In this document: positions 4,462-24,341 of the stretch, in pieces | Numbering within the stretch: position 1 is the stretch's first letter | Layout: each line of letters begins with the position of its first letter | Virus record (IMG/VR): IMGVR_UViG_3300028177_000028 | Coordinates: 1-26,986 of that record | Length of the DNA: 26,986 nt | Reading direction: 5' to 3' (one strand) | Origin: a virus | Translations under genes and position numbers: made by a program | Notes under the pieces: generated by a model | Told to the model about the DNA's origin: nothing | Database searches by the model: none | Seen by the model: the letters and a program-made list of their open reading frames with translations, nothing else

Positions 4462-5148
4462 TTAGAAGAATAATTCTTTAAACATGTTGATTTTATTTGA
4501 CTGTTTTGTCTCTCGCATATTATCAGATGATACCTTATAATAAACATCGTTTAATTCTATACCGATAAACCCTCGGTTCATCGATTTACATGACATTCCA
4601 GTTGTTGCAGTGCCCATAAAACAATCCAACACAGTATCATTCTCATTTGTGAAGTTTTCAATTACCCAATCAGAAACCTCACGATGCATTACTGCTTTGT
4701 GATTTTTTGGCATGTTAGAGTTTACGGATGTCGTTATTGTGTTTTTGGTATATGTACTGTTGGATGTTAACGATGCTTCACCAAACACAATTATATATTC
4801 ATGCGAATTCGTAATGCTACCACCTGATGCTGGCATTGGGTTGGATTTCTCCCATATAATTACTTCCTGTATTGCATCGCTGTATTTCCCAATAAGATTG
4901 AAAACATCTTTTTTATTATAAAAGTTTTTCTGTATGTTGAAGAATACATTGCCATTGGTAATTCGTATCAATTCATCTATCACATTGCACATCCACGCAT
5001 AATAGTCATCAACTATATCATCGTAGTGGTCGTATTTGTCGTTGCGTTTTCTATTATATGGTGGAGATGTGAACGCAAAATCAACAGAATTATCTGCCAT
5101 CTTCTTCATTTCGTCCAAGCAATCACCATGAATCAATACTTCAATCAT
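4462..5148 (-). CDS. DNA methyltransferase, N6-adenine/N4-cytosine type (beta class)
   Basis: This 228-residue enzyme moves a methyl group from SAM to an exocyclic amino group in DNA. The catalytic motif IV TSPPYN (27-32) comes before the SAM-binding motif I region DCFMGTATTG (175-184), the order of beta-class enzymes (N6_N4_Mtase family). The GDC-x-x-x-M start and the HREVSDWVIENFT stretch before motif I are also typical. The region between, about 40-160, would hold target recognition. No restriction endonuclease is adjacent, so it is an orphan, probably protecting or marking phage DNA. No clear Shine-Dalgarno sequence is seen. Adenine or cytosine specificity cannot be told from sequence alone. 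Confidence 0.9.
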   Translation of the reverse strand: MIEVLIHGDCLDEMKKMADNSVDFAFTSPPYNRKRNDKYDHYDDIVDDYYAWMCNVIDELIRITNGNVFFNIQKNFYNKKDVFNLIGKYSDAIQEVIIWEKSNPMPASGGSITNSHEYIIVFGEASLTSNSTYTKNTITTSVNSNMPKNHKAVMHREVSDWVIENFTNENDTVLDCFMGTATTGMSCKSMNRGFIGIELNDVYYKVSSDNMRETKQSNKINMFKELFF

Positions 5149-5169: not shown

Positions 5170-5580
5170 TTAAGCATTATGTGAGTTGTGCATTGACCCA
5201 TGAATACGTGCTCTATCAGATGTTACGACAATTGCATCAGTGTGGGTATCATCAATCTGTTTTACGTCGCTTACTAATAAAATATCATTGTTATCCACAC
5301 GGCGCAATGTCAAGTCAGTGTCGCCAACTTCAATTTTAATACCACGTGTCCATCTACCGTGTGATGTCAGTACATACTGCCCCACAGACACATCAGTTTG
5401 TTTGTCACCGATTGCATATACTTCCGCCCACCTAGGTCTAATGCCAGTAGATGTTTTATCGTCACCCGGAAGAATAATACCATTGGAAGTGAATCTCTCT
5501 CCAAAATGCATATCCTTTACTAGTATGTTATCGTGCAGTGCTTTAATTGAATCGATTTTGTATGTATTAATTGATGCCAT
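5170..5580 (-). CDS. 31: Co-chaperonin, T4 gp31-like
   Basis: This 136-residue GroES-fold protein is expected to cap the GroEL ring and enlarge the cage so that the major capsid protein can fold, as T4 gp31 does. IKALHDNILVKDM (12-24) aligns with the first strands of GroES. ERFTSNGIILPGDD (28-41) is the mobile loop, with the GIIL-type hydrophobic contact that docks on the GroEL apical domain. WAEVYAIGDKQTDVSVGQYV (51-70) matches the GroES pattern EV-x-A-x-G-x-G...V-x-x-G-x-x-V. It has a C-terminal extension of about 30 residues beyond the fold. It overlaps the preceding gene by TAATG. It is distinct from the canonical GroES at 24054-24341. Confidence 0.85.
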   Translation of the reverse strand: MASINTYKIDSIKALHDNILVKDMHFGERFTSNGIILPGDDKTSTGIRPRWAEVYAIGDKQTDVSVGQYVLTSHGRWTRGIKIEVGDTDLTLRRVDNNDILLVSDVKQIDDTHTDAIVVTSDRARIHGSMHNSHNA

Positions 5581-6071: not shown

Positions 6072-6575
6072 TTAACGTAGAAATTCACCTACGTCTAAAT
6101 TGTAGAATATGCTATCTATTTTATGAACTTCTAATTTATACAATACATAACTAGAAACGCTTGACCCACGCCCAACCCCCCATATTATGTTATTTTGTAT
6201 CATAGTATCTACTAGGTATTTCATGTACTTCAATAGGTTAAATAAACTTCGTTCTTGATACATAATAAGTTCATACCCACATCGTTGGAGTTCCGCATCA
6301 GTGTTGCATTCCGATAATATGTACTCAGCGATATCTAAATCTTTGTACTCATTTGGCATATACCAATTTTCTTGATTTTTTCTATCAAATTCAAAGACAG
6401 TATCGGATGGTTCAACGTATTGCACTACGGTTTGGGTACCTGTGTAATTATTAACATTCGACACATTAACCCCATTTACTAAAAATTGGGAAGATGTGAT
6501 ATCAATTCCTTGCATAATAATATCACTAACATCATCCTCATCGTAGATGTATTGTCCGAATTTATCCTTTATCAT
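6072..6575 (-). CDS. DNA polymerase III alpha-like 'GRGS' domain protein (stand-alone fragment)
   Basis: The chosen start (MIKDKFGQY) overlaps the previous stop as ATGA; an in-frame ATG at 6593 is possible. The product has 167 residues. Its C-terminus reads GVGRGSSVSSYVLYKLEVHK followed by IDSIFYNLDVGEFLR. This matches the pattern in bacterial DNA polymerase III alpha, G-V-G-R-G-S-x-x-x-S-L-V-x-Y-x-L-x-I-T-x-I-D-P-x-x-Y-x-L-x-F-E-R-F-L. Pol III alpha is over 1100 residues and has a PHP domain and a catalytic Asp triad; neither is present here. It may be a remnant or a repurposed nucleotide- or DNA-binding domain. The match is seen directly; the function is unknown. Confidence 0.7.
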   Translation of the reverse strand: MIKDKFGQYIYDEDDVSDIIMQGIDITSSQFLVNGVNVSNVNNYTGTQTVVQYVEPSDTVFEFDRKNQENWYMPNEYKDLDIAEYILSECNTDAELQRCGYELIMYQERSLFNLLKYMKYLVDTMIQNNIIWGVGRGSSVSSYVLYKLEVHKIDSIFYNLDVGEFLR

Positions 6576-8233
6576 TGGTAATTCACCAAACACTCTAATT
6601 CGGGGAAAACGTCAATGAGTTTTTCATTTCGTATATTATCAATTTGTGTTATTTTTTTCCAAAACCCATTGGCATCAAATATAGATGTTTCGTCTGTTAA
6701 CGCGGTGAGTATGGATTTGAAAGATGTCACTGATTTTTCCGTTTTATCTAATGGTATTAGCCAATCTATATGGGTCGAAATTTTATTATAAATTTTTTGT
6801 TTTAATTTACGGGGAGCGTTCTTTAGGCTAAACACGCTTGGATAATCTAACACCTTTGGGTTAAATTGTTCTGGTATTATTAACCCATCCTTAACCCATG
6901 CTTTGTGAAAATGTGGAATATGCAATGCGTTTACCAAACTAACAGTTGCATCGATGCTGAACCCTACTTCTGGTAGTTTTTGTAGCATCATATATCTATT
7001 ATTAACGATTGTATCCCATTTTGTTCCACTCCTCCAATATTCGGCACGTGTACCCATTGCATCTAGGCTTGCACCAATATGAATATGGTTGAACGCCCCC
7101 CAATAATCAAAAATACTTTTACCACGAAAGGTCAAATTTGTAAAGTTGGTATTAAAAACCAATTCAATATCAAATCGTTCCTGTTTGTACAAACTTTCGA
7201 GAATATCCCAACATTCCTTTATTATTAATGGTTCCCCCCCAGCAAAATAAATATATTCCACGTGGTCTAAATGTTCCATATATTGGGAAAATACTCCACT
7301 TGGGCGTAGTAATTGTTGATATTCTAAATTTCCATTAATTAATTTAGAATCAGCAAACCACGAGGTGGACGAATGTGGACTGCATGTCCTACACTTCAAG
7401 TTACACAAATTATTAAATCTTATATCCCATGCAACGTGTTCATATGGGAATGCCCCATCATCCCCAGTATTCTCAGTTCTTGGTATATGATGCAAAAACT
7501 TATTATTTGCAGATTGTCTAAATGTCGCTTTTTCTGATGATTCATTTATAGAACACACCTCGCATCCATGTATGGGTATGTCATTTAACATATCTGTCCG
7601 TATTTGACGCATACTCTCGTTATTGAATATTTCACTTAATGAATTGTCATTAACATCACCAACTGCACTATTCGAATTATAAACACAGCATGGATAAACC
7701 AACCCATTCGGTCTTACTTGAGTTTGAATCCACGGCATGATACAAAAATTCTTGTTATTATCTATAATGTTTGCTGTATTCTTTGTTAAGTTGTCCAACA
7801 TTACATTTTGTGGGATTACTTCTGTAATAAGGGTGTCTATCTTTTTAAATTTTCCAAAACATTTATATATTTCGAAGGATATATTATCTGATGAAAAATT
7901 CTTTAAGATATGTGTATATTCCGATTCAACATTGTGGTTTGTTGTTAAAAACAATATGAAAAAATTACTAATATCTACTTTATTAATAATTGTTTGTACG
8001 GTTTTTAACAATGTTCCGTAACTTGATGTATTGTATTGGTCTAGTGATGAATGTATTAGTATTCTCTGTTCTTGCCCATATGCTGTTTTATACAATTCGT
8101 TTATCTCTAACTGCAGATTTGCAAGAGAGTGAATATAATTATCTAAATTGATGGTGCCTAATATTTGATAGGAATCATTCAGTGAAACAATGCACTGATG
8201 GATATCCAAGTCTGTTGTTTTTAAATTTATCAT
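6572..8233 (-). CDS. Radical SAM protein with SPASM/twitch-like cysteine region
   Basis: The 553-residue protein has three parts. Residues 1-150 are an unrecognised N-terminal domain. Residues 160-230 hold FCIMPWIQTQVRPNGLVYPC with CC at 182-183 and CEVC at 224-227, the cysteine pattern of SPASM/twitch auxiliary-cluster domains. From about 265 the radical SAM core begins, with CNLKCRTC (Cys277, 281, 284; CX3CX2C) binding the 4Fe-4S cluster, then YIYFAGGEPLI, the GGEP motif that contacts SAM. Such enzymes make 5'-deoxyadenosyl radicals for peptide or small-molecule modification. The auxiliary part comes before the core, as in a group I recall from cyanophages and pelagiphages. ATGA overlaps link it to both neighbours. 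The substrate is unknown. Confidence 0.9.
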   Translation of the reverse strand: MINLKTTDLDIHQCIVSLNDSYQILGTINLDNYIHSLANLQLEINELYKTAYGQEQRILIHSSLDQYNTSSYGTLLKTVQTIINKVDISNFFILFLTTNHNVESEYTHILKNFSSDNISFEIYKCFGKFKKIDTLITEVIPQNVMLDNLTKNTANIIDNNKNFCIMPWIQTQVRPNGLVYPCCVYNSNSAVGDVNDNSLSEIFNNESMRQIRTDMLNDIPIHGCEVCSINESSEKATFRQSANNKFLHHIPRTENTGDDGAFPYEHVAWDIRFNNLCNLKCRTCSPHSSTSWFADSKLINGNLEYQQLLRPSGVFSQYMEHLDHVEYIYFAGGEPLIIKECWDILESLYKQERFDIELVFNTNFTNLTFRGKSIFDYWGAFNHIHIGASLDAMGTRAEYWRSGTKWDTIVNNRYMMLQKLPEVGFSIDATVSLVNALHIPHFHKAWVKDGLIIPEQFNPKVLDYPSVFSLKNAPRKLKQKIYNKISTHIDWLIPLDKTEKSVTSFKSILTALTDETSIFDANGFWKKITQIDNIRNEKLIDVFPELECLVNYQ

Positions 8234-9311: not shown

Positions 9312-11831
9312 TTATGTGGTTTGTTTTGTATTTATTATATCTCTCTTGGGAAACATTAAATACTCATCAAATTTGTCAGTGACATCATAAGTTGTGTACG
9401 TATATGTGATGCCGTTATCTGCGGTAATATAAATATTATCTGTGGTTTTTGTTGATATATCACTCGAATTAATACGCGACTCGATAAATGCACATGACCC
9501 ACCGTCAAATATAGTTTTGATGGTAACGGCATTAACTAAGTCTACTGCTATTGTGTTGGCATCGACCGTAGTATCTATGCTATCTGCAGAAACTCCATGA
9601 TTATAAATATCAAATGTTGTCTCATTGGAGTGGTACCATCGTTGGTCTTCTGCATCCCAATTCTGTGTAAATTGTGACTCTAACATATACCTATCAACAC
9701 TAAAATCTATTTTATTCAATTGAGCCCCAAATCTTTTGGCAATATTGTATGCCACTAATTCAGATTGGCCTGGTAATGTATACGCGATTACCCACGATGG
9801 AGTGAACCCTAATATATTCCCATTTGCTTGTTTAGATAACATCCACGTTGGGAGTTCTGTTGATACTTGTCCTACTTTGTTAATAACTCGATTACGCATA
9901 TTATCCAAACTATTTGGATATACATCTCCGATACTAGTGTTAGCCGTCAGTGATACCCCACTATTATTATCTACTATTTGACTGTACACCACCTCGTACC
10001 GGATGTTATTCTTATCATCTAGTGCAATCGCTGTTTTAATCTCACCAAGTATTAAACGTTTATCATAGTGGTTATATTCTAATGTTTCGATGTATGAATT
10101 TAATGTTTCTGGAGAAAGTCCATATGCATGTACGTATGAAACATCTGTTGCTACTCCAAAATAAGGGTCATCGCTTCTGAACAATAGTTCTGTTTTAATT
10201 GTGTCTTGGTTAAGCAATAATGAATCTAATATACCTCTACCTGCTTCAGTCGGCAAAGCGTCGATGCGAATTTTATGTAATGGAAGGTTATATGTTCTAT
10301 TAACATTAATTGTGAATGTTTTAAACGTGGATATCCCGCCATCAGCACTAAATGCCTCTACTGTAAATGTAAATGTACTATCAATTGTTGTTTTCCCGCC
10401 ATCAAGTGTAATCGTTTCCCCGCCATTGGTATCGGCAGTAATTAAATTGGTATCGACTGCATTTCCACTATCAGATGTTATATTATAATCAACTAACCCA
10501 AACATTTGATAATCAACTTTACCAACAATATTTCCTGAACTTAATAAATTTAAGCCCTGTGGCAATTTACTATTTACGCCACCCTGTTTTAATCTATATT
10601 GCAGTGCAGTACCAGAAGTGGCAGAAGCGTTAATCATAAGGGTACTTATTCCGCCATTATCAATTGCACCAAGTAGAGTATCGGTATTCCAACTAACCCC
10701 CGCGTTGATATCCCCGATAACCTTCATCGTATAATTAAATGTATTGGATACCAATGGGTTATCCTTTCTGTATACTTTTATAGAAAAACTGTATTCCTCT
10801 TCGGTTAATCCAATATTAGGTAATATTCCATGCACTACCCCAGTATCCACATCCAGTTCAAGCCCACTTGGCAATGATGTAGTATAATCTGCTCTAATTA
10901 CTGATGTATCTGCCTTTGTAAATGTGGTGTCCGTAGTTTCAGATATCCCTTCGGCATAGTTTAGTATATCTCCGTTATAATCGACGCCAGGGAAATCATA
11001 AATGAAGTAATTATTATGCAAGAACGTTCCCAAATCTTCTTGATGCGGGGATATAAATGGAGCACGTGTGACTGTATCAGCAGTAATAACATCACTATCT
11101 ACGGTGTAGGCGGATGAATCTGCGGTCGTGATACCAACATATATGGAAAATGTTCTTAAATTATAATCAATGCCATCAGTGATTCTTAATGTGAAACTAT
11201 AATTTTTGCTGATTGTTCCGGTATTAAATTGTAATGGTAATGAATCCCACGCTTCGTTTTCCCACCCTGCTATGGACGTTTCTCCAATCTCAATAACTGG
11301 TTTAATATATCCGTAAATCAATCCAGTTTCAGATACTGTAATTCCAGGTGGCAATTCCCCACTAATTAATTTGACAATTGCTGTATCGCCAGGGTCAGTA
11401 TCTGTAAATTCAATTTGTTTGTTAATCAATTCCCCATCGAAATATTTCCCCAATTCGCCACGTGGGGTTATAAATTCAGGGGCATCTTGACCAGTAACAG
11501 TTATAGTGAATGTTCTATCAGTTAATCGGTCTTGTGAAATTGTACCGTTAGTTTCCTTTTCGGTAAAAACTCTAATTGAAAATTTGGATATTACATTTTC
11601 GGCAACGGCTGTTGGAATACCTTGGATAGAAGCAACAGGGGTGCCCTCTATCGTACCGTTAGTATTGATTTGGATTCCTTGCGGTAAGGTACCGGAAACT
11701 TTGATGTACTTAACTTTGGAAGAATCAGATGGGAAATCTGGGTCATACGCTTCCAAAGTGGCTCGATAAAATTTCCCTTCCGGTATGGTTCCTAAACTGC
11801 CAGAATCAGTGACCCAAGATGGCTGTGCCAT
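9312..11831 (-). CDS. Large structural protein with He_PIG/Ig-like repeats
   Basis: The start chosen is MAQPSWVTDSGSLGTIPEGK at 11831, because GAGGGAAATCAA precedes it; an upstream in-frame ATG at 11930 would overlap the previous gene by 76 nt. The product has 839 residues. At least four copies of the pattern L-P-x-G-(I/L)-x-(I/L)-x-x-x-G-x-(I/V)-x-G occur near residues 49-65, 160-178, 320-338 and 423-439, the hallmark of putative-Ig (He_PIG) cadherin-like domains. These are common in secreted adhesins and phage tail proteins. The last 300 residues differ and may form a tail-attachment or tip domain. No signal peptide is present, as expected for a virion protein. A receptor-binding or fibre role is inferred. 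Confidence 0.8.
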   Translation of the reverse strand: MAQPSWVTDSGSLGTIPEGKFYRATLEAYDPDFPSDSSKVKYIKVSGTLPQGIQINTNGTIEGTPVASIQGIPTAVAENVISKFSIRVFTEKETNGTISQDRLTDRTFTITVTGQDAPEFITPRGELGKYFDGELINKQIEFTDTDPGDTAIVKLISGELPPGITVSETGLIYGYIKPVIEIGETSIAGWENEAWDSLPLQFNTGTISKNYSFTLRITDGIDYNLRTFSIYVGITTADSSAYTVDSDVITADTVTRAPFISPHQEDLGTFLHNNYFIYDFPGVDYNGDILNYAEGISETTDTTFTKADTSVIRADYTTSLPSGLELDVDTGVVHGILPNIGLTEEEYSFSIKVYRKDNPLVSNTFNYTMKVIGDINAGVSWNTDTLLGAIDNGGISTLMINASATSGTALQYRLKQGGVNSKLPQGLNLLSSGNIVGKVDYQMFGLVDYNITSDSGNAVDTNLITADTNGGETITLDGGKTTIDSTFTFTVEAFSADGGISTFKTFTINVNRTYNLPLHKIRIDALPTEAGRGILDSLLLNQDTIKTELLFRSDDPYFGVATDVSYVHAYGLSPETLNSYIETLEYNHYDKRLILGEIKTAIALDDKNNIRYEVVYSQIVDNNSGVSLTANTSIGDVYPNSLDNMRNRVINKVGQVSTELPTWMLSKQANGNILGFTPSWVIAYTLPGQSELVAYNIAKRFGAQLNKIDFSVDRYMLESQFTQNWDAEDQRWYHSNETTFDIYNHGVSADSIDTTVDANTIAVDLVNAVTIKTIFDGGSCAFIESRINSSDISTKTTDNIYITADNGITYTYTTYDVTDKFDEYLMFPKRDIINTKQTT
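9329..9336 (-). promoter_or_regulatory. Late promoter-like AATAAATA
   Basis: The minus strand reads AATAAATAC, one base from the T4 late consensus TATAAATA. It lies 33 nt before the ATG of the structural gene at 8553-9296, the same distance as the perfect motif before 12457, and it is inside the 3' end of the upstream gene. Confidence 0.5.
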
Positions 11832-11854
11832 TTGATTTCCCTCACTGGTTAATA

Positions 11855-12457
11855 TTAATGTCCTGTACTTAGATTTGCACTTACATCCATAAAGTTTTGT
11901 AGGTACCAACTTGTACCATCTGAAATCCATGTAGTTACGTCGCCTGACGCTGTTGTAATGTCTGCTGAACCACCTTTAAGGTCAGTTCCAGTTACATCAT
12001 ATACAACTGCATGTGCTGAAATTATAGTAATAGTTTGCCCTGCAACACCATCGTCGAAGTCAGTGATAGTTACTGCACCGCCAGACTTAAACAAGTTACC
12101 ACCTGCGACTGTTGGTGTTGCATCCGCCGCACCAAAAGTAATAAATGTACCACTTGTACCTGCCGCCGCGAAACCACCGTTAACCGTAGTTGCACCTGTA
12201 ACTGTTACTGTACTACTTGCTGTTACTGCATTAGCAAGAACGATAGTACCTGTACCATTTGGGTCTAATGTTAAGTTACCATTAGTGTCATCCGTTGAAA
12301 TAGTGTTACCACTGATGCTAATATTACTTAAACTTGCTCCACCTAGTTCAGTGTAAACTTCGTTAAAGTTATCGTTAACTTTGTCGAATGCCGTTCTTAA
12401 TTGGTCGCCTGTGCCGTCATTTGCTGTAGCACCGATATTGATTGATTGTTGAGCCAT
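11855..12457 (-). CDS. Phage structural protein with conserved N-terminal module
   Basis: A 200-residue, Thr/Gly/Ala-rich beta-type protein. Its N-terminus, INIGATANDGTGDQLRTAFD then KVNDNFNEVYTELG, is a module common in marine phage fibre and structural proteins (recalled). It resembles the start of the 8553-9296 product (GFRDNF...NFIEAKTEIEDVQ). The middle (NGNLTLDPNGTGTIVLANAV) looks like the beta repeats of tail-fibre or peptidase-linked structural proteins. The Shine-Dalgarno AAGGAAAA precedes the ATG, and a perfect TATAAATAC lies 33 nt upstream. It is probably an abundant late virion protein; the exact place in the particle is unknown. Confidence 0.75.
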   Translation of the reverse strand: MAQQSINIGATANDGTGDQLRTAFDKVNDNFNEVYTELGGASLSNISISGNTISTDDTNGNLTLDPNGTGTIVLANAVTASSTVTVTGATTVNGGFAAAGTSGTFITFGAADATPTVAGGNLFKSGGAVTITDFDDGVAGQTITIISAHAVVYDVTGTDLKGGSADITTASGDVTTWISDGTSWYLQNFMDVSANLSTGH

Positions 12458-14795: not shown

Positions 14796-15005
14796 TTATG
14801 TTTTGGGGCTTGTTGTTTTATAATCATCGATAACATTTGATATGTCATCTGCAATATCCTGCATTACATCTTTAATTTCGGAATGTGTGGCGAACATCAA
14901 TCTTGCCCATTCATCATCTGTAAAAACTTCACTTGCAGGAGCACTAGAATGTTTATCTATAATTGCTTTTTTCTCTGCTTTGGATAACTTACGATTAGTC
15001 ATCAT
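14796..15005 (-). CDS. Small helical hypothetical protein
   Basis: Starting at the ATG at 15005 gives 69 residues (MMTNRKLSKAEKKAIIDKHS); the next ATG at 15002 is equally possible, and a TTG at 15011 is less likely. The start region overlaps the stop of the 76-residue acidic gene, so translation is coupled. The N-terminal third is basic and the C-terminal two thirds acidic and helical (EIKDVMQDIADDISNVIDDY). No family is recognised. It is the last gene of the acidic cluster at 14796-16540. Confidence 0.6.
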   Translation of the reverse strand: MMTNRKLSKAEKKAIIDKHSSAPASEVFTDDEWARLMFATHSEIKDVMQDIADDISNVIDDYKTTSPKT

Positions 15006-15225
15006 CTTCAAGTCGCCACTCTACATCAGTGCCACAATCCTTTTCTCGTACTAACTCACCTTCGTAACGTAAATCTTCGTCAATGGATTCTGTGTCATCA
15101 AGAAATGAATCAACATCTCCGTCGAACTCATCATCAAGACGCTTTTCTTGCTCATCGGTTAGTGTAATTTCAGTTTTGTACCACAGTGTTGTGGTATTGG
15201 TTTCCATTCTAATTAATCGTTTCAT
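14995..15225 (-). CDS. Small highly acidic protein
   Basis: The start at 15225 (MKRLIRMETNTTTLWYKTEI) is chosen because GGAG lies 8 nt upstream; an ATG at 15246 would overlap the previous gene and lacks a good ribosome site. The product has 76 residues. After a short basic start it is dominated by Asp/Glu (RLDDEFDGDVDSFLDDTESI) and ends in EWRLEDDD. This fits the style of the neighbouring acidic proteins and of phage DNA-mimic or inhibitor proteins, but no family is recognised. It overlaps the next gene by about 10 nt. Confidence 0.65.
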   Translation of the reverse strand: MKRLIRMETNTTTLWYKTEITLTDEQEKRLDDEFDGDVDSFLDDTESIDEDLRYEGELVREKDCGTDVEWRLEDDD

Positions 15226-15227
15226 TG

Positions 15228-15923
15228 CTATTCTCCGTGTTTCCAAAGGTACACGTAAATTCCTTTGCCTGTTGAATCTCCGCCTTCGTTATCTAAATCT
15301 TCGCCGTCGTAAGTTATATCTGCTATTAAGTCTGCACCAGTTCTCCAATCCTCAGCAGTAAACACTGTGATTTTTGATTTATCGAACTCTTCATCAATTT
15401 CAAATGTAGCATCAAAGAAGTTACCTTTTTCGTAACTTTCATATGTAACCATGTACTTCTTATCTATAAATTCTTGCCAAGTTGCTTTTTCGGCAGATGT
15501 CCACGTAGTATCGCATCTAATTTCGGTCTCGTCATCTGGCTCGTCTTTGTAAACTGCTTCGCCTATCACTACATCATCTACTGGTGGCGAGTAGAATTCA
15601 TTATCTGCGTCGTCTGGGTCTGTGAAAATACTTACACCATTTACTTCAACCTCAATGCGAGCATCATCAAACCCAATGCGCCAATAGTGGTCCACCATTC
15701 CAGGTGCATCGGAAATGAATTCACCATCTCTAAACTCTGCGAACTTAGGTATTTCAAATTCCATTTCGTCGTCGTCCCATGCAGAAATGTAGGTTTCTAA
15801 ATCTCCGTCTCCGTGCTCTACTGCATGTTCTTCCCACCATTCGTACGCTTCTTTCGATAATGCAACGTGTACTGTCTCGCAACCACCGCCGTATGTACTA
15901 ATATGTATTTTATTTTTTGGCAT
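15228..15923 (-). CDS. Acidic hypothetical protein, 231 residues
   Basis: A strongly acidic, tryptophan-containing, beta-rich protein. The N-terminal part (ISTYGGGCETVHVALSKEAY, then EWWEEHAVEHGDGDLETYIS) and the C-terminal part (YMVTYESYEKGNFFDATFEI) may be separate domains joined by an Asp-rich linker near 105-135. No signal peptide, membrane segment or metal site is clear. The Shine-Dalgarno AGGAG precedes the ATG at 15923. It is in one apparent operon with the other acidic genes. Acidic surface proteins of this kind in phages can mimic DNA or bind host enzymes; here that is only a suggestion. Confidence 0.7.
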   Translation of the reverse strand: MPKNKIHISTYGGGCETVHVALSKEAYEWWEEHAVEHGDGDLETYISAWDDDEMEFEIPKFAEFRDGEFISDAPGMVDHYWRIGFDDARIEVEVNGVSIFTDPDDADNEFYSPPVDDVVIGEAVYKDEPDDETEIRCDTTWTSAEKATWQEFIDKKYMVTYESYEKGNFFDATFEIDEEFDKSKITVFTAEDWRTGADLIADITYDGEDLDNEGGDSTGKGIYVYLWKHGE

Positions 15924-15944: not shown

Positions 15945-16313
15945 TTATGCATCTGTGATACTTTCACAAAATTCTTGGAACTCGTCGTACGAATCCATTT
16001 GCTCCGCTTCGCTCAGTTCTTCCATTGCAAAAACGAATCCTTTGTTCCAATTATACGATTCTTCAAAATCATCCTCGTTGTACGTGGCATCAAATAACAG
16101 TCTAATGCGCATGGTATCGATATATACATCTTGTACCCTTTGATACAATTGTCCACTGTACCCATCGGTAAAGTCAAAACCCTCAGGTACTGTAATATCA
16201 AGAAAGTCCGTTGCGTTACTGTATACAATGTCTGTTTCTTCGTAAAATATAACTACAGCACATGCTTGGCAGAATTGTTCTTTTTGTTCAGTGTTTAAAT
16301 CATGTATTTCCAT
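15945..16313 (-). CDS. Acidic hypothetical protein, 122 residues
   Basis: An Asp/Glu-rich protein with a predicted alpha/beta pattern (EQFCQACAVVIFYEETDIVY, later FEESYNWNKGFVFAMEELSE). It has Cys residues but no recognisable metal motif. Its start overlaps the stop of the 75-residue gene (TAATG) with GGAG just upstream, so the two are co-translated. The family is not recognised. Confidence 0.65.
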   Translation of the reverse strand: MEIHDLNTEQKEQFCQACAVVIFYEETDIVYSNATDFLDITVPEGFDFTDGYSGQLYQRVQDVYIDTMRIRLLFDATYNEDDFEESYNWNKGFVFAMEELSEAEQMDSYDEFQEFCESITDA

Positions 16314-16540
16314 TACTTAATCTCCTTAGTTGACATCCATTCGCGTCCTGTTTCGATATTATCAGATTTTGCATCGTAATTGTAAACACATTCGTTTGAC
16401 CAATCCATGTCTTCTTCAAGTTCTTCATCTAGTGCTTCTTCTGATTCCGCTTCGTATGTGTTAACCACAGTTTCAAATAAGTCTTCACTCTCATCATTGT
16501 AGTGTGAAAAGTATCTAAATGTTACTTCATATTTTGGCAT
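16313..16540 (-). CDS. Small acidic protein, first of the acidic cluster
   Basis: A 75-residue protein starting with a beta hairpin-like stretch (MPKYEVTFRYFSHYNDESED) followed by an acidic helix (EAESEEALDEELEEDMDW). The layout, strand plus an E-A-E-S-E-E-A-type helix, recalls small beta-alpha phage proteins of unknown role. GAGGAG lies 5 nt before the ATG. Its stop overlaps the next start (TAATG). It follows the ion channel gene on the same strand, after a gap of about 40 nt, so the acidic genes and channel may share transcripts. Confidence 0.7.
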   Translation of the reverse strand: MPKYEVTFRYFSHYNDESEDLFETVVNTYEAESEEALDEELEEDMDWSNECVYNYDAKSDNIETGREWMSTKEIK

Positions 16541-16579: not shown

Positions 16580-17434
16580 CTACTTTTTATCTTGTAGCAT
16601 ATGTTGTTTTAATGACGATTCCATGCTTGTGATTTGTTGCTGTAAAGCAAGTACAACTTCGTGTGTGTCGTGTACTTCAAACGCTTCGCCTTTGCCCATT
16701 TCTTTACTGTGCTTTTCGTGCTCTTGACTAAACACATCAATAACGACACCAATCATCATGTTTAAGAATACAAATGCGTTTAAGAAGATAAAACTAAGGA
16801 AGTAAATCCAAGCAAGTGGGTACACGTCCATTACAGCGTACATAACTTCTGACCAATTATCAAACGTAACTACACGGAACATTGTAATCATTGCTACTGA
16901 AATATTGCCCCATAAGTCTGGGTCAACTGTGTTGAAGAACATACTACCTACGGCGCCGTACATATAGAATATAACAAACATAAGCAGTACCACGTATCCC
17001 ATCCTAGGAATTGCTTTAAGTAGCGCACCTACTAACATACGTAGTTCTGGTACGAATGAAATTAGTCGTAGTACTCTAAAGATACGCAACAGTCTAGCAA
17101 GTAGTACAGTTTCGCTGTCGTCTATTGGAATTAAACTAACAGTTACGATGATTGTATCAAAAACGTTCCATCCGCGCTTAAAGAAGTTTTTAAATTGTGG
17201 TTCAACCATCATCCTAATAATGATTTCAAACAGAAAGAATATAGTAATACCAAAGTCAAGTAATTCAAGTAGTGACATTGACCACGTAGGTAAGTTGTAT
17301 GTATTTGCACCAATTGCCAATGCCGAAACGACAATAACAACTATTACGAGTGTTTCGAAAATTTTACAAGTGTGTATGCCATCCAATCGTTCGATTAGAG
17401 TTACGTACTTTGATTTGATTGTGTGGATTGTCAT
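16580..17434 (-). CDS. Single-domain voltage-gated cation channel (NaChBac/BacNav-like)
   Basis: This 284-residue inner-membrane protein has six predicted segments: S1 26-43, S2 59-76 (Glu70), S3 88-103 (Asp93), S4 110-125, S5 145-168, S6 207-238. S4 carries Arg114, 117, 120 and 123 at every third position, the voltage sensor. The pore loop reads TFDNWSE (190-196), aligning with TLESWSM of bacterial sodium channels. Asp replaces the key Glu, as in the engineered calcium-selective filter TLDDWSD. A C-terminal helix (255-280, VVLALQQQITSMESSLKQHM) fits the coiled coil that holds the tetramer. Length matches bacterial channels (about 260-290). No Shine-Dalgarno sequence is seen; the ATG lies at the end of an inverted repeat. 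It could depolarise the host or carry Na+/Ca2+; that is inference. Confidence 0.92.
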   Translation of the reverse strand: MTIHTIKSKYVTLIERLDGIHTCKIFETLVIVVIVVSALAIGANTYNLPTWSMSLLELLDFGITIFFLFEIIIRMMVEPQFKNFFKRGWNVFDTIIVTVSLIPIDDSETVLLARLLRIFRVLRLISFVPELRMLVGALLKAIPRMGYVVLLMFVIFYMYGAVGSMFFNTVDPDLWGNISVAMITMFRVVTFDNWSEVMYAVMDVYPLAWIYFLSFIFLNAFVFLNMMIGVVIDVFSQEHEKHSKEMGKGEAFEVHDTHEVVLALQQQITSMESSLKQHMLQDKK

Positions 17435-17995: not shown

Positions 17996-19231
17996 ATGTG
18001 GATTTACAAAAATAAAGAATTTACGGAGGATATTAGTGAATATGATTCATTTGTATATCTAATAACTAGATTGAGTGATGATGAGATTAAACCAAAGTAT
18101 TACATTGGTAAAAAAACATTTTGGTTTAAAAATAGAAAAAAAATTCCAGGGAGAAAAACACGAAAAATAATAAAAACGGAATCAAATTGGGTATCTTACT
18201 ATGGTTCATCAAATTGGCTCGAGGAAGTTATTAATGAAGAAGGTAAAGAAAACTTCAGAAGAGAAATTATCCATCTATGTTCTTCAAAAGGGGAATCATA
18301 CATATTGGAAGCAAAAGAACAGATGCAAAATAATGTATTGTCGAAGAAGTATAGTAATGGTATTAAGAAATTCTATAATAAGCATATTTTGGGGAAATAC
18401 ACAAAAGAATATTTTTCAACACGTGAATTGACTGAACTCATGTCATTCGAAAATGATATGAATCCATGTGGAATGATATGGATAACAAATGGCACGGAGA
18501 GCAAACAAATAAAAGAAATAGATGAAATTTTAAGTGGGTGGGAGCGTGGGTATCATTTTGGCAAGAATTACTGTTGGGTTAATAATGGAAGGGATGAAAA
18601 AAAAATATTACGTAGTGATATAAACAGTTTGATTTATAGAGAATGGAACGTCGGTAGATTATACTCACCATCGAAAAATAAAAAATGTATTCATAAGGGT
18701 GATAACATAAAGTACATCACAAAAGAAGAAGTTGATTCATACGTTGATGATGGGTGGGTGATAGGTAATACTAAATTAAGAAAGACATTAGAGGAAAGAA
18801 ACAAACTGCACGTATGCAATGATGATTCAAAGACACAAAAACTAGTTTCAAATCACGATATTAAAAACTTTTTATTAGAGAATCCCACGTGGCGAATCGG
18901 GCAATTCAAACGTGGGAACTTCACAACAGAAAATAAAGTTTTTGCCTATGATATGATGAGTAATGAAAAGGTTCAAGTAACAAAAGATGAATACAATAAT
19001 AACAAAAACTTGACTAGTGTTAAAACAAGAATGGTTAAGGTTAAACGAAAAAATAAAATTGTTTTTGAAGGGTTTTTACCACTTTTCTTCCAAAACTACG
19101 ATGTTCCAACTACACCATTTAATAAAAAATTAAGACTTGGTGATACCACCAAAATAGTAATCATTAAAGGGAAAAATAAGTGGATTACTGACGAAGGGTG
19201 GTCAATTGCTGAAATTACAAAAAAGGCATGA
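17996..19231 (+). CDS. GIY-YIG (SegE-like) homing-type endonuclease
   Basis: The 411-residue protein has a GIY-YIG-type nuclease domain at 18-120: VYLIT (20-24), KYYIGKK (34-40), then WVSYYGSSNWLEEVI, F-R-R-E-I-I-H-L-C and a Glu in ILEAKEQMQNN, the layout of T4 SegE-like free-standing endonucleases. Residues about 155-270 hold repeats of the type W-x-x-NG...GW-x-x-G (MIWITNGTESKQIKEIDEIL then SGWERGYHFG; CIHKGDNIKYITKEEVD then DGWVIG), common in the DNA-binding parts of homing enzymes. It is one of only two plus-strand genes, with its own late promoter, and A/K-rich unlike its neighbours, as expected for a mobile gene. The target site is unknown. Confidence 0.8.
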   Translation: MWIYKNKEFTEDISEYDSFVYLITRLSDDEIKPKYYIGKKTFWFKNRKKIPGRKTRKIIKTESNWVSYYGSSNWLEEVINEEGKENFRREIIHLCSSKGESYILEAKEQMQNNVLSKKYSNGIKKFYNKHILGKYTKEYFSTRELTELMSFENDMNPCGMIWITNGTESKQIKEIDEILSGWERGYHFGKNYCWVNNGRDEKKILRSDINSLIYREWNVGRLYSPSKNKKCIHKGDNIKYITKEEVDSYVDDGWVIGNTKLRKTLEERNKLHVCNDDSKTQKLVSNHDIKNFLLENPTWRIGQFKRGNFTTENKVFAYDMMSNEKVQVTKDEYNNNKNLTSVKTRMVKVKRKNKIVFEGFLPLFFQNYDVPTTPFNKKLRLGDTTKIVIIKGKNKWITDEGWSIAEITKKA

Positions 19232-20750: not shown

Positions 20751-21600
20751 AATGTTCTTTAATAAGCATATTAAGGAACTTTGTGTATCCTGGGTACTGC
20801 GACAGCACATCAATATCAGTCTGCGATATCGATGAATCAGATTCATCCACAAATTGATTGCTTTCGTACTGAAATTGGAACACACGCATTGACTTAGGGT
20901 CACCGTCATTCAAGATAACATCATAGAATGCACCTTGACCAGAATAGTGTTCAAAGTTATTGGTACTTGCAGTACAGAAGTTGGCAGCAGGTTCCTTACC
21001 ATCACCAATTGCAGCATTAGTACTAGCGTACACTGAACCTTGTGGCATTCTACATACTTCTCTTGCTTGTTCCTTTGTATGTGGTTGGAATACTTTAAAA
21101 GTACCTTCATCAATAATTAAATCACCACGGTCTGCCGATGCTTCTTCACCACGTGCCATTCGACCCGTGTTATCAATATCTTTATTCATCGCTAATTCAG
21201 CAGTTCTATCTGCTTGAACAATAGCATTCACAACTTCTTGTGTTTGTGCCTTTGTCATACGACCAATATCATTATTCTGTTGAGGTAATTTCTTACGTTT
21301 CTTCAATGAATCGAATTGCGTAAGTAATGTAGAGATTCCTTCAGCATCTTCACCAATAAAGAATTCACCATTACTGAACCATTTGACAACGGCAACCTCG
21401 TATTGTCCATTTCTACTAGGGTCAATAGAAATCAACTGCTCGGCAACTGATTTAATACCTTCATCTGACTTAACTAATTCATTATCAACTGTATGGTCTC
21501 TCTGCATACCTTTAACAATAAGTCTTGACATCTGCTCCCAACGATTCGGTGCTAGTATTTTGTCGCCTTTGCCTTCTAATAAAAATTCTTGTGCTCTCAT
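20734..21600 (-). CDS. Phage protein with conserved FCTAS...F-x-x-Y-x-x-x-G block
   Basis: The 288-residue protein begins MRAQEFLLEGKGDKILAPNR. The N-terminal half is helical. Around residues 205-260 it reads AANFCTASTNNFEHYSGQGA then FYDVILNDGD and VFQFQYESNQFVDESDSSIS. A block of this form (W/F-C-T-A...F-x-x-Y...G-x-L/F-Y-x-x...Y/F-Q-F...Q-F-x-D-E) is widespread in phage hypothetical proteins as I recall, with no function I know. CATAAATAC lies 29 nt before the ATG, suggesting late expression. The LTVGGSLDL repeat gene overlaps its 3' end by 17 nt. It could be a nucleic-acid-directed or ADP-ribosyl-type enzyme, but I have no firm evidence. Confidence 0.65.
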   Translation of the reverse strand: MRAQEFLLEGKGDKILAPNRWEQMSRLIVKGMQRDHTVDNELVKSDEGIKSVAEQLISIDPSRNGQYEVAVVKWFSNGEFFIGEDAEGISTLLTQFDSLKKRKKLPQQNNDIGRMTKAQTQEVVNAIVQADRTAELAMNKDIDNTGRMARGEEASADRGDLIIDEGTFKVFQPHTKEQAREVCRMPQGSVYASTNAAIGDGKEPAANFCTASTNNFEHYSGQGAFYDVILNDGDPKSMRVFQFQYESNQFVDESDSSISQTDIDVLSQYPGYTKFLNMLIKEHYAEYL

Positions 21601-21628
21601 AGTATTAAATATTAATTATAATTATTTG

Positions 21629-21636
21629 TATTTATG
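21629..21636 (-). promoter_or_regulatory. Late promoter-like CATAAATA
   Basis: CATAAATAC on the minus strand, 29 nt before the ATG at 21600, overlapping the stop of the winged-helix gene at 21632-21922. The same CATAAATAC variant precedes the plus-strand gene at 26967 with equal spacing. Confidence 0.45.
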
Positions 21637-21922
21637 CCATAACTAAAACTCTATCTCGCTTATCGGTATTTGACCCAACACTATTGGTTGTTATTAATTT
21701 TAATTTTTTAAGGACAAGTACATTGCGTTTTATCGTCGAAAATGATTGGTCATTAAAATATGACTCATTGGATATATCAGCAATACGTGTTCCTTGTCTA
21801 CTAGCAATGAACTCCAATGTTGCTTTTTCACGCTCACTCAACTCTGATAATCCCAATTGCTTCTCACAATATTGCACTGTCTTCCGATGTTCGAATAACT
21901 TTTCAATCTTCGCTTTGCTCAT
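21632..21922 (-). CDS. Small winged-helix DNA-binding protein (MarR-like)
   Basis: A 96-residue protein. LSEREKATLEFIASRQGTRI (26-45) followed by ADISNESYFNDQSFSTIKRN and VLVLKKLKLITTNSV has the order helix, turn, recognition helix and wing found in MarR/LysR-size winged-helix proteins. The final strand KRDRVLVMA closes the wing. A basic N-terminus precedes it. TATAAT at 21958-21953 lies 31 nt before the ATG; one arm of a bulged hairpin overlaps it. It could regulate phage or host genes; no target is seen. Confidence 0.65.
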   Translation of the reverse strand: MSKAKIEKLFEHRKTVQYCEKQLGLSELSEREKATLEFIASRQGTRIADISNESYFNDQSFSTIKRNVLVLKKLKLITTNSVGSNTDKRDRVLVMA

Positions 21923-21952
21923 TTTTTATAATGGTGTAGTTTAAAACTGCCT

Positions 21953-21958
21953 ATTATA
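21953..21958 (-). promoter_or_regulatory. TATAAT -10-like element
   Basis: The minus strand reads GTATAATAGG, 31 nt before the ATG at 21922. TATAAT-A-GG can pair with CCATTATA just upstream of the start codon with one bulged base, echoing the start-region hairpins at 4091, 8469 and 17434. No clear -35 box is seen. Confidence 0.35.
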
Positions 21959-21965
21959 CATAAAA

Positions 21966-22304
21966 TTAATTTGGTGTTCTAACTAAAAATTTATTTTGTC
22001 TTTTCCCAAACACGAGCGATGATTCTACCGAAATATACGGGGTTTCTTTAATTGCCTCATTAATCCTATCCTTTATGTAGTTCTTACTTTTGGGGTCAGT
22101 CAACGTTCTGAAACGTAGGGGGGTATAGAACATAAGTTCTTCCATTGTGTAACCAAAATTATCCTTCTCGATTAATAATACACGTACTGCATCCTTAATA
22201 TGCTCTTTGAATTCTTGTATTGATAAATTTTCGATTGTTTTGGTATCAATACTTTGTAAATATTCTTTCGTTTCATTTAAAACGTGAGGTGTTAATAGTT
22301 CCAT
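21966..22304 (-). CDS. Hypothetical protein, 112 residues
   Basis: A helical protein (EYLQSIDTKTIENLSIQEFK, then EHIKDAVRVLLIEKDNFGYT) with a basic C-terminal strand (FGKRQNKFLVRTPN). The layout of helices and a final beta hairpin (TPYISVESSLVFGKRQNKFL) is compatible with a winged-helix fold, but no signature is certain. AAGGAAAAAGGAAC serves as ribosome site before the ATG. It is the first gene after the groEL terminator, with a TATATAA stretch right at the terminator's end. Confidence 0.6.
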   Translation of the reverse strand: MELLTPHVLNETKEYLQSIDTKTIENLSIQEFKEHIKDAVRVLLIEKDNFGYTMEELMFYTPLRFRTLTDPKSKNYIKDRINEAIKETPYISVESSLVFGKRQNKFLVRTPN

Positions 22305-22397: not shown

Positions 22398-24044
<1,647 letters not shown>

Positions 24045-24053
24045 TTATTCTCC

Positions 24054-24341
24054 TTAGTTAATTACTGCTACAATTTCTTCTTCATGCATAATAACAAAAT
24101 CTTCGTTATCTACATTTACTTCTGTTCCGGCGTGTTTGTTAAACAGTACGATATTACCAACTGTGACATCTAGTGCTTGTAATTCACCGTTGTTATCGCG
24201 TACGCCATTGCCTACTGCAATCACTTCGCCACGACTTGGCTTTTCAGATGCTGTTCCTGGAATAATAATTCCACCCGACGTAACTTGTTCTTCTTCTGCT
24301 CTGCGTACTACTACGCGGTCATACAATGGTTTTAACTGCAT
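24054..24341 (-). CDS. groES: Co-chaperonin GroES (10 kDa)
   Basis: The 95-residue protein is canonical. [20 protein letters not shown] leads into the mobile loop [15 protein letters not shown] (21-35), then [30 protein letters not shown], and EEEIVAVIN. It forms the seven-fold lid of GroEL. AGGAGA lies before the ATG. It is followed 9 nt later by groEL, the usual bacterial order. The sequence differs clearly from the gp31-like protein at 5170-5580, so the phage carries two types of lid. Confidence 0.97.

Follow-up and report, generated by a model that had tools for sequence, protein, structure and literature searches.

A jumbo phage fragment encodes a single-domain voltage-gated cation channel with an unusual selectivity filter

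The AnclNavs, which include NavPp, CavMr and the gammaproteobacterial channels of Halomonas elongata and Teredinibacter turnerae, are channels with a single domain of six transmembrane helices (6-TM), a full voltage sensor and an acidic residue at position 7 of the selectivity filter (PMC7041947). NavPp, with the filter TLEDWTD, is Na+-selective (PCa/PNa 0.31) and is blocked by Ca2+, and CavAb-type filters failed to give it Ca2+ permeability. CavMr (TLEGWVD) is Ca2+-selective and needs the Gly at position 4; in its G4S mutant, which has a neutral residue at that position, monovalent selectivity was lost and PCa/PNa was 11.9. No current was obtained from the H. elongata and T. turnerae channels (PMC7041947). 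Outside this group, NsvBa of Bacillus alcalophilus (TLDSWGSG) has Asp at the HFS position and is non-selective for Na+, Ca2+ and K+, the single change D186E bringing back Na+ selectivity, and in NaChBac the change E192D lowers selectivity as well (PMC4225499). The 'beacon' review regards position 4 as decisive and classes filters with Asp at HFS and a neutral position 4 as non-selective; OsEukCatA1, with Asp at HFS and a neutral residue at HFS+1, is non-selective (PMC10120453).

The DNA analysed in this study (the window) is a viral contig of 26,986 bases, on the reverse strand of which an intact open reading frame, from ATG to stop, encodes a channel protein of 284 aa (16580..17434, -). Residues 24-241 matched the Pfam family Ion_trans (PF00520; E = 2.6e-44), and the nearest single-domain relative in the PDB was NavRh (4dxw; sequence E = 1.4e-60). 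An AlphaFold2 model, built with 33 sequences, had a mean pLDDT of 74.6, with values of 84-94 in the pore blocks (about residues 151-230), and superposed on NavRh with a TM score of 0.86-0.90 (normalised to the target) at ~41% identity. The voltage-sensor domain (residues 24-127; 17054..17365, -) is made of the modelled helices S1 (24-42), S2 (50-77), S3 (88-101) and S4 (107-127). It is followed by the S4-S5 linker and pore domain (residues 129-246; 16697..17050, -), in which the model places S4-S5/S5 at 129-167, P1 at 178-189, P2 at 194-204 and S6 at 208-246. A C-terminal helix (residues 250-283; 16586..16687, -), similar to helix-forming tails in the relatives, is by analogy with BacNavs probably a tetramerisation coiled coil.

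The charge-transfer centre is formed by F67 and E70 in S2 and D93 in S3, and the gating arginines of S4 are Arg114, Arg117, Arg120 and Arg123. These seven residues, and N225 in S6, were the same in the channel of a related phage (described below) and in 88/88 other bacterial-type channels compared. The S4 arginine repeat, the charge-transfer centre, the re-entrant P-loop and the 6-TM fold are thus all present, as expected of a single-domain voltage-gated cation channel. A preliminary description had read an S1-S6 layout with four S4 arginines from the sequence, and had called the protein voltage-gated; both statements agree with the modelled helices, the Ion_trans match and the presence of every voltage-sensor hallmark.

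The window is part of the genome of a jumbo phage whose relatives include the Pseudomonas phages PA5oct and Paride. Its phage genes (PHROGs) code for a clamp loader, virion structural proteins and tail proteins, and it also has genes for GroEL and GroES-like proteins. The clamp loader was 58% identical to those of the jumbo phages PA5oct/Paride and 79% identical to that of a 97-kb phage contig (G001, loci L001/L003). This sister phage, which carries a T4-type DNA polymerase, encodes a channel that was 65% identical to that of the window, and ~24 kb of the window was collinear with it. The channel gene has phage genes on both sides and is found again in this collinear phage, which bears out the earlier statement that it is virus-encoded. 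Host contamination and a chimeric contig were considered and ruled out, because the channel and the same partner genes are present in both phages, at places that differ relative to the collinear backbone. Comparison of the two phage channel genes gave a dN of 0.24 and a dS of 1.31 (dN/dS about 0.18), and the gene is therefore under purifying selection.

Collinearity between the window and G001 is broken by a shared module, which consists of the channel gene, then a gene for an acidic partner protein of 231 aa (15228..15923, -), found with the channel in both phages and 59% identical between them, and then a 71-aa ORF (14796..15011, -), which was 75% identical over 48 residues to the ORF after the partner gene in G001. 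The module is located at 82-87 kb in G001, and in the window it is flanked by blocks whose counterparts in G001 are at about 15 kb and 8 kb. From this break it follows that the module occupies variable regions and has been relocated. Adjoining the module on the opposite strand is a gene for a SegE-like GIY-YIG endonuclease (17996..19231, +; PF19835, E 8.7e-31), which is possibly the agent that moves it. In the window, the next gene downstream of the channel is a small acidic ORF of 75 aa (16313..16540, -), with a GAGGAG ribosome-binding-like site before its start, and its stop is overlapped by an acidic ORF of 122 aa (15945..16313, -). Neither ORF had a match in PHROG or PADLOC, nor had the 122-aa ORF one in Pfam.

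The 231-aa partner protein is present in two copies in G001, and 91 matches to its family were found in IMG/VR, on contigs of up to 329 kb (L115-L194); no Pfam or PHROG match was obtained. Its AlphaFold2 model (pLDDT 33.5) was too low for use. A channel-specific role for this protein was rejected, as the family is common in phage contigs and no channel was nearby in the others checked. A defence system was also rejected, since neither the channel nor its neighbours had a PADLOC match. Promoter and terminator scans gave nothing above shuffles, and no gene for lysis or exclusion was recognised next to the channel.

Several other genes were observed in these regions. A class 3 lipase (PF01764; 19333-20289, -), 70% identical to an ORF of G001, adjoins the variable region of the channel and might act on membranes. 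In the sister phage (L001, 3394-7971), a subtilase of 1525 aa with a lipoprotein-like start ends ~30 bases ahead of the channel gene. A radical SAM/SPASM protein of 553 aa (6572-8233, -) adjoins a 173-aa DNA-polymerase-family protein in the window; the genes that flank it are adjacent in G001 (21350-21580 and 21589-22062), so that the window phage seems to have gained it by insertion, unless G001 has lost it. A protein of 872 aa (9312-11930, -) has putative Ig domains (He_PIG) and adjoins a short tail-fibre-connector-like protein, and a DNA methyltransferase (4462-5148, -) had many PADLOC type II methyltransferase matches.

Homologues of the channel were found at 449 bacterial loci, and the best 80 of these 449, at 52-61% identity, were nearly all gammaproteobacterial. 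The genera represented among the bacterial homologues include Thiodiazotropha, Marinobacterium, Halomonas, Methylophaga and others, and a homologue was present in 34/114 sampled members of the gammaproteobacterial class. The close relatives belong to marine gammaproteobacteria, as ordinary genes of the chromosome or of large plasmids; those on large plasmids of Pseudoalteromonas were 50-54% identical to the window channel in a protein-level search. In a tree of 90 sequences the two phage channels were sisters (100/99) and nested inside the gammaproteobacterial clade, and this gamma/phage clade was split from the outgroup BacNavs (L008-L011) with a support of 100/99. The nearest group to the phage pair was formed by two Saanich Inlet gammaproteobacterial bins and Pseudoalteromonas, with a weak support of 86/88. 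Because the phage clade is nested within gammaproteobacterial channels that are 50-60% identical to it, the channel was captured from a host. The capture was probably not recent, since the GC content of the channel gene (37.0%) fits that of the phage (35.5%) and not that of most host genes sampled (40-60%).

The chaperonin genes of the window comprise GroEL (22398-24044, -), an adjacent GroES-like gene (24054-24341, -) and, elsewhere, a second GroES-like protein (5170-5580, -) that matches a phage head-morphogenesis family. The window GroEL was 82% identical to that of G001. Against long GroEL matches in channel-bearing gammaproteobacteria it was 71-78% identical, and the best match (78% over 428 residues) was in one of the two Saanich Inlet bins near the phage pair. 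This likeness is consistent with a marine gammaproteobacterial host.

The selectivity filter (residues 190-196; 16847..16867, -) is encoded by ACG TTT GAT AAT TGG TCA GAA and reads TFDNWSE, exactly as the preliminary description had it. The filters of 84 bacterial relatives were TFEDWTD in 67/84, the Halomonas-type TFESWATA, longer by one residue, in 12/84 and TLEDWTD in 2/84, with TFESWTE, TFEGWSE and TFESWATQ found once each. The relatives, near ones only, were chosen through patterns outside the filter, so that these counts are free of search-pattern bias. TFDNWSE did not occur a second time among all the sequences found; the filter was rightly called unusual. The yardstick used for it, TLESWSM, was the wrong one, as the clade of this channel has TFEDWTD (67/84 relatives and the sister phage). 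Two further observations concern the relatives: L083 (1996-2838), from a Leucothrix bin, has the filter TFEGWSE, shares the Gly at position 4 with the Ca2+-selective CavMr and is a candidate native gammaproteobacterial Ca2+ channel; Halomonas-type channels (L042, L047, L057, L079 and others) with TFESWATA have the additional residue after the Trp like canonical BacNavs, yet are nested in the short-filter clade.

Position 3 (E192) was Glu in 84/84 bacterial relatives and is Asp in the window channel. Since this Glu is invariant and the sister phage has TFEDWTD, TFDNWSE is, by this comparison, derived from TFEDWTD on the window's own branch through four conservative changes (E-D, D-N, T-S, D-E), with T190, F191 and W194 unchanged. 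At positions 3, 4 and 7 the window thus has D, N and E, where the TFEDWTD type, the commonest but not the sole filter of the clade, and the sister phage have E, D and D. The number of acidic residues per subunit is two, compared with three in the relatives, so that relative to its real kin the aligned window filter has lost the acidic residue at position 4 and has gained none. Of the columns that are >=95% conserved, four are changed in the window channel (L183I, L185M, E192D, T195S), and 4/4 of these changes are in the pore helix and filter (residues 183-195), whereas the four changes of the sister phage at such columns are scattered along the protein. The probability of this clustering was about 7e-5, in a post hoc test picked once the data had been seen.

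The channel falls, with its phage sister, within the gammaproteobacterial TFEDWTD clade, and this clade filter resembles the TLEDWTD of NavPp. Judged by the clade filter and by the placing of Halomonas among the AnclNavs in PMC7041947, it is probably AnclNav-like; it differs from the AnclNavs in being phage-encoded and in the Asp and Asn at filter positions 3 and 4. NavRh, from the Rickettsiales strain HIMB114, aligns without gaps through the filter and has the same one-residue-shorter stretch past the filter Trp, but it is bacterial, and its filter, TLSSWET, has Ser at HFS. The canonical BacNavs NavAb, NavMs and NaChBac (TLESWSM/TLESWAS) share the fold, the voltage sensor and the C-terminal helix. 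Relatives of that type were ~28-33% identical, lie outside the clade, differ in the filter and have one more residue after the filter Trp; neither a TLESWxxG filter nor a position in the canonical clade was found for the window channel. NsvBa shares the Asp at HFS followed by a neutral residue and is, among the published precedents, the best fit for the window filter, but it belongs to another clade, and its filter loop is longer and contains a GxG motif.

The preliminary description had also likened the filter to the TLDDWSD of CavAb. This likeness is weak and is not supported, as CavAb-type filters have Asp at positions 3, 4 and 7, and the window has Asn at position 4 and two acidic residues where its kin have three. 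The Gly at position 4 of CavMr-type filters is replaced by Asn193. Charge count is no guide to Ca2+ selectivity in this background, because NavPp, with three acidic residues, is Na+-selective and Ca2+-blocked. The effects of a filter depend on its background; the CavAb-type logic failed in both CavMr and NavPp (PMC7041947). From the effects of Glu-to-Asp changes at HFS in NsvBa and NaChBac, and from the 'beacon' class, a poorly selective, Ca2+-permeable pore is predicted, at about an even chance. Ca2+ permeability as such is plausible, and a Ca2+-selective pore would be much less likely and is improbable.

The best explanation, which we consider probable by a narrow measure, is that a gammaproteobacterial host channel was captured by a jumbo phage and kept as an accessory gene whose product opens on depolarisation, its filter having changed from TFEDWTD to TFDNWSE; the tetramer, gating voltage, selectivity, host and role are what we infer. 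A jumbo phage lineage on marine gammaproteobacteria would have taken up an 'ancestor-like' (TFEDWTD) single-domain channel of its host as an accessory gene. In the host inner membrane the product would assemble as a homotetramer that stays closed while the cell is energised and opens on depolarisation. The depolarisation that naturally triggers it in the infected cell might come from the entry of DNA, from a further phage or from membrane damage late in infection. Through the open channel Na+, and in the window phage also Ca2+ and K+, would flow down their gradients, and depolarisation could be prolonged or amplified, the host Na+ cycle fed late in infection, or superinfecting phage excluded. 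The activation of Bacillus channels near -40 mV is remote from the bacterial resting potential (PMC4225499), and the opening of the channel in the host is for this reason uncertain.

A bolder version, possible but doubtful, is that the phage lineage reshaped the captured channel into a leak, non-selective, permeable to Ca2+ and triggered by depolarisation, through which the energetics of the host membrane are collapsed or reset at a defined stage of infection; it would be the first viral Nav/Cav-type channel, with a filter type unseen in cells. Alternatively, the channel might be an auxiliary metabolic gene with a selectivity near the NavPp type, allowing Na+ re-entry for the host Na+ cycle (antiporters, flagellar motor, pH homeostasis), so that the cell stays functional while a jumbo phage completes its long infection. 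This is unlikely. The ordinary chromosomal or plasmid setting of the kin agrees with it, as do the NavPp-like TFEDWTD retained by the sister phage and the service of Bacillus Navs in the Na+ cycle, such as NaVBP in alkaliphilic Bacillus (PMC4225499), but the four differences between TFEDWTD and the window filter, one of them at the invariant Glu, are unexpected if host-like Na+ selectivity was kept.

That the phage lets in Ca2+ through a Ca2+-selective channel, and so triggers or times lysis or blocks superinfection, appears improbable. The Asp at HFS and the acidic position 7 are superficially like TLDDWSD of CavAb, and CavMr G4S keeps its PCa/PNa of 11.9 with a neutral position 4 (PMC7041947); position 4 of the window is, however, neither Asp nor Gly, OsEukCatA1 and NsvBa combine Asp at HFS with a neutral neighbour and are non-selective (PMC10120453, PMC4225499), and no lysis gene was identified next to the channel. 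Drift of the captured gene towards loss of function, with relaxed selection on the filter and little or no conduction, could account for four changes away from a strongly conserved motif in a gene carried by few phages, but is very improbable given the intact reading frame, the dN/dS of about 0.18, the retention of all gating residues and the conservative nature of the changes, with T190, F191 and W194 kept.

A scan of IMG/VR (2.9 million contigs, by exact short peptide matches, with which diverged phage channels can be missed) found one further phage with this channel, the sister phage G001, so that the phage contigs with the channel gene were two only. Among 50,697 annotated phage records there was one match only, the bacterial-looking channel of 'Bacteriophage sp.' MT835812 (26.8% identical); it is probably bacterial, the record being unverified and unannotated with a prepilin-peptidase-like ORF beside the channel. 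Another candidate (L093), at the extreme end of a contig that is a provirus and carries tail genes of the lambda type, groups with Halomonadaceae-type channels and is probably a flanking host gene. No canonical BacNav was confirmed in viral contigs, and a viral fold search (BFVD) gave no match at E <= 0.001. A survey of viral channels covers K+ channels, anion channels and a few others; its main text lists no Nav/Cav-type channel and does not contain the word 'voltage' (PMC6163359). The K+ channels of phages, including several vibriophages, and of chloroviruses are likewise viral ion channels with cellular homologues, but they are mostly 2-TM and have a K+ filter (PMC6163359), the T-x-GYG/GFG motif of which is absent from the window channel. 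No convincing phage or viral Nav/Cav-type channel was found in the collections and literature searched, where absence is not proof.

Phage K+ channels were thus already known (PMC6163359), and what is new here, within the collections and literature searched, is a viral Nav/Cav-type channel and a filter unseen elsewhere. The presence of the channel under purifying selection in two related jumbo phages points to a use for depolarisation-sensing in infection. It also bears on the open question of the purpose of bacterial Nav channels. The natural pair of the sister phage channel (TFEDWTD) and the window channel (TFDNWSE), 65% identical, also makes it possible to test, in a background other than that of NavAb, which positions of the filter determine the choice between Na+ and Ca2+.
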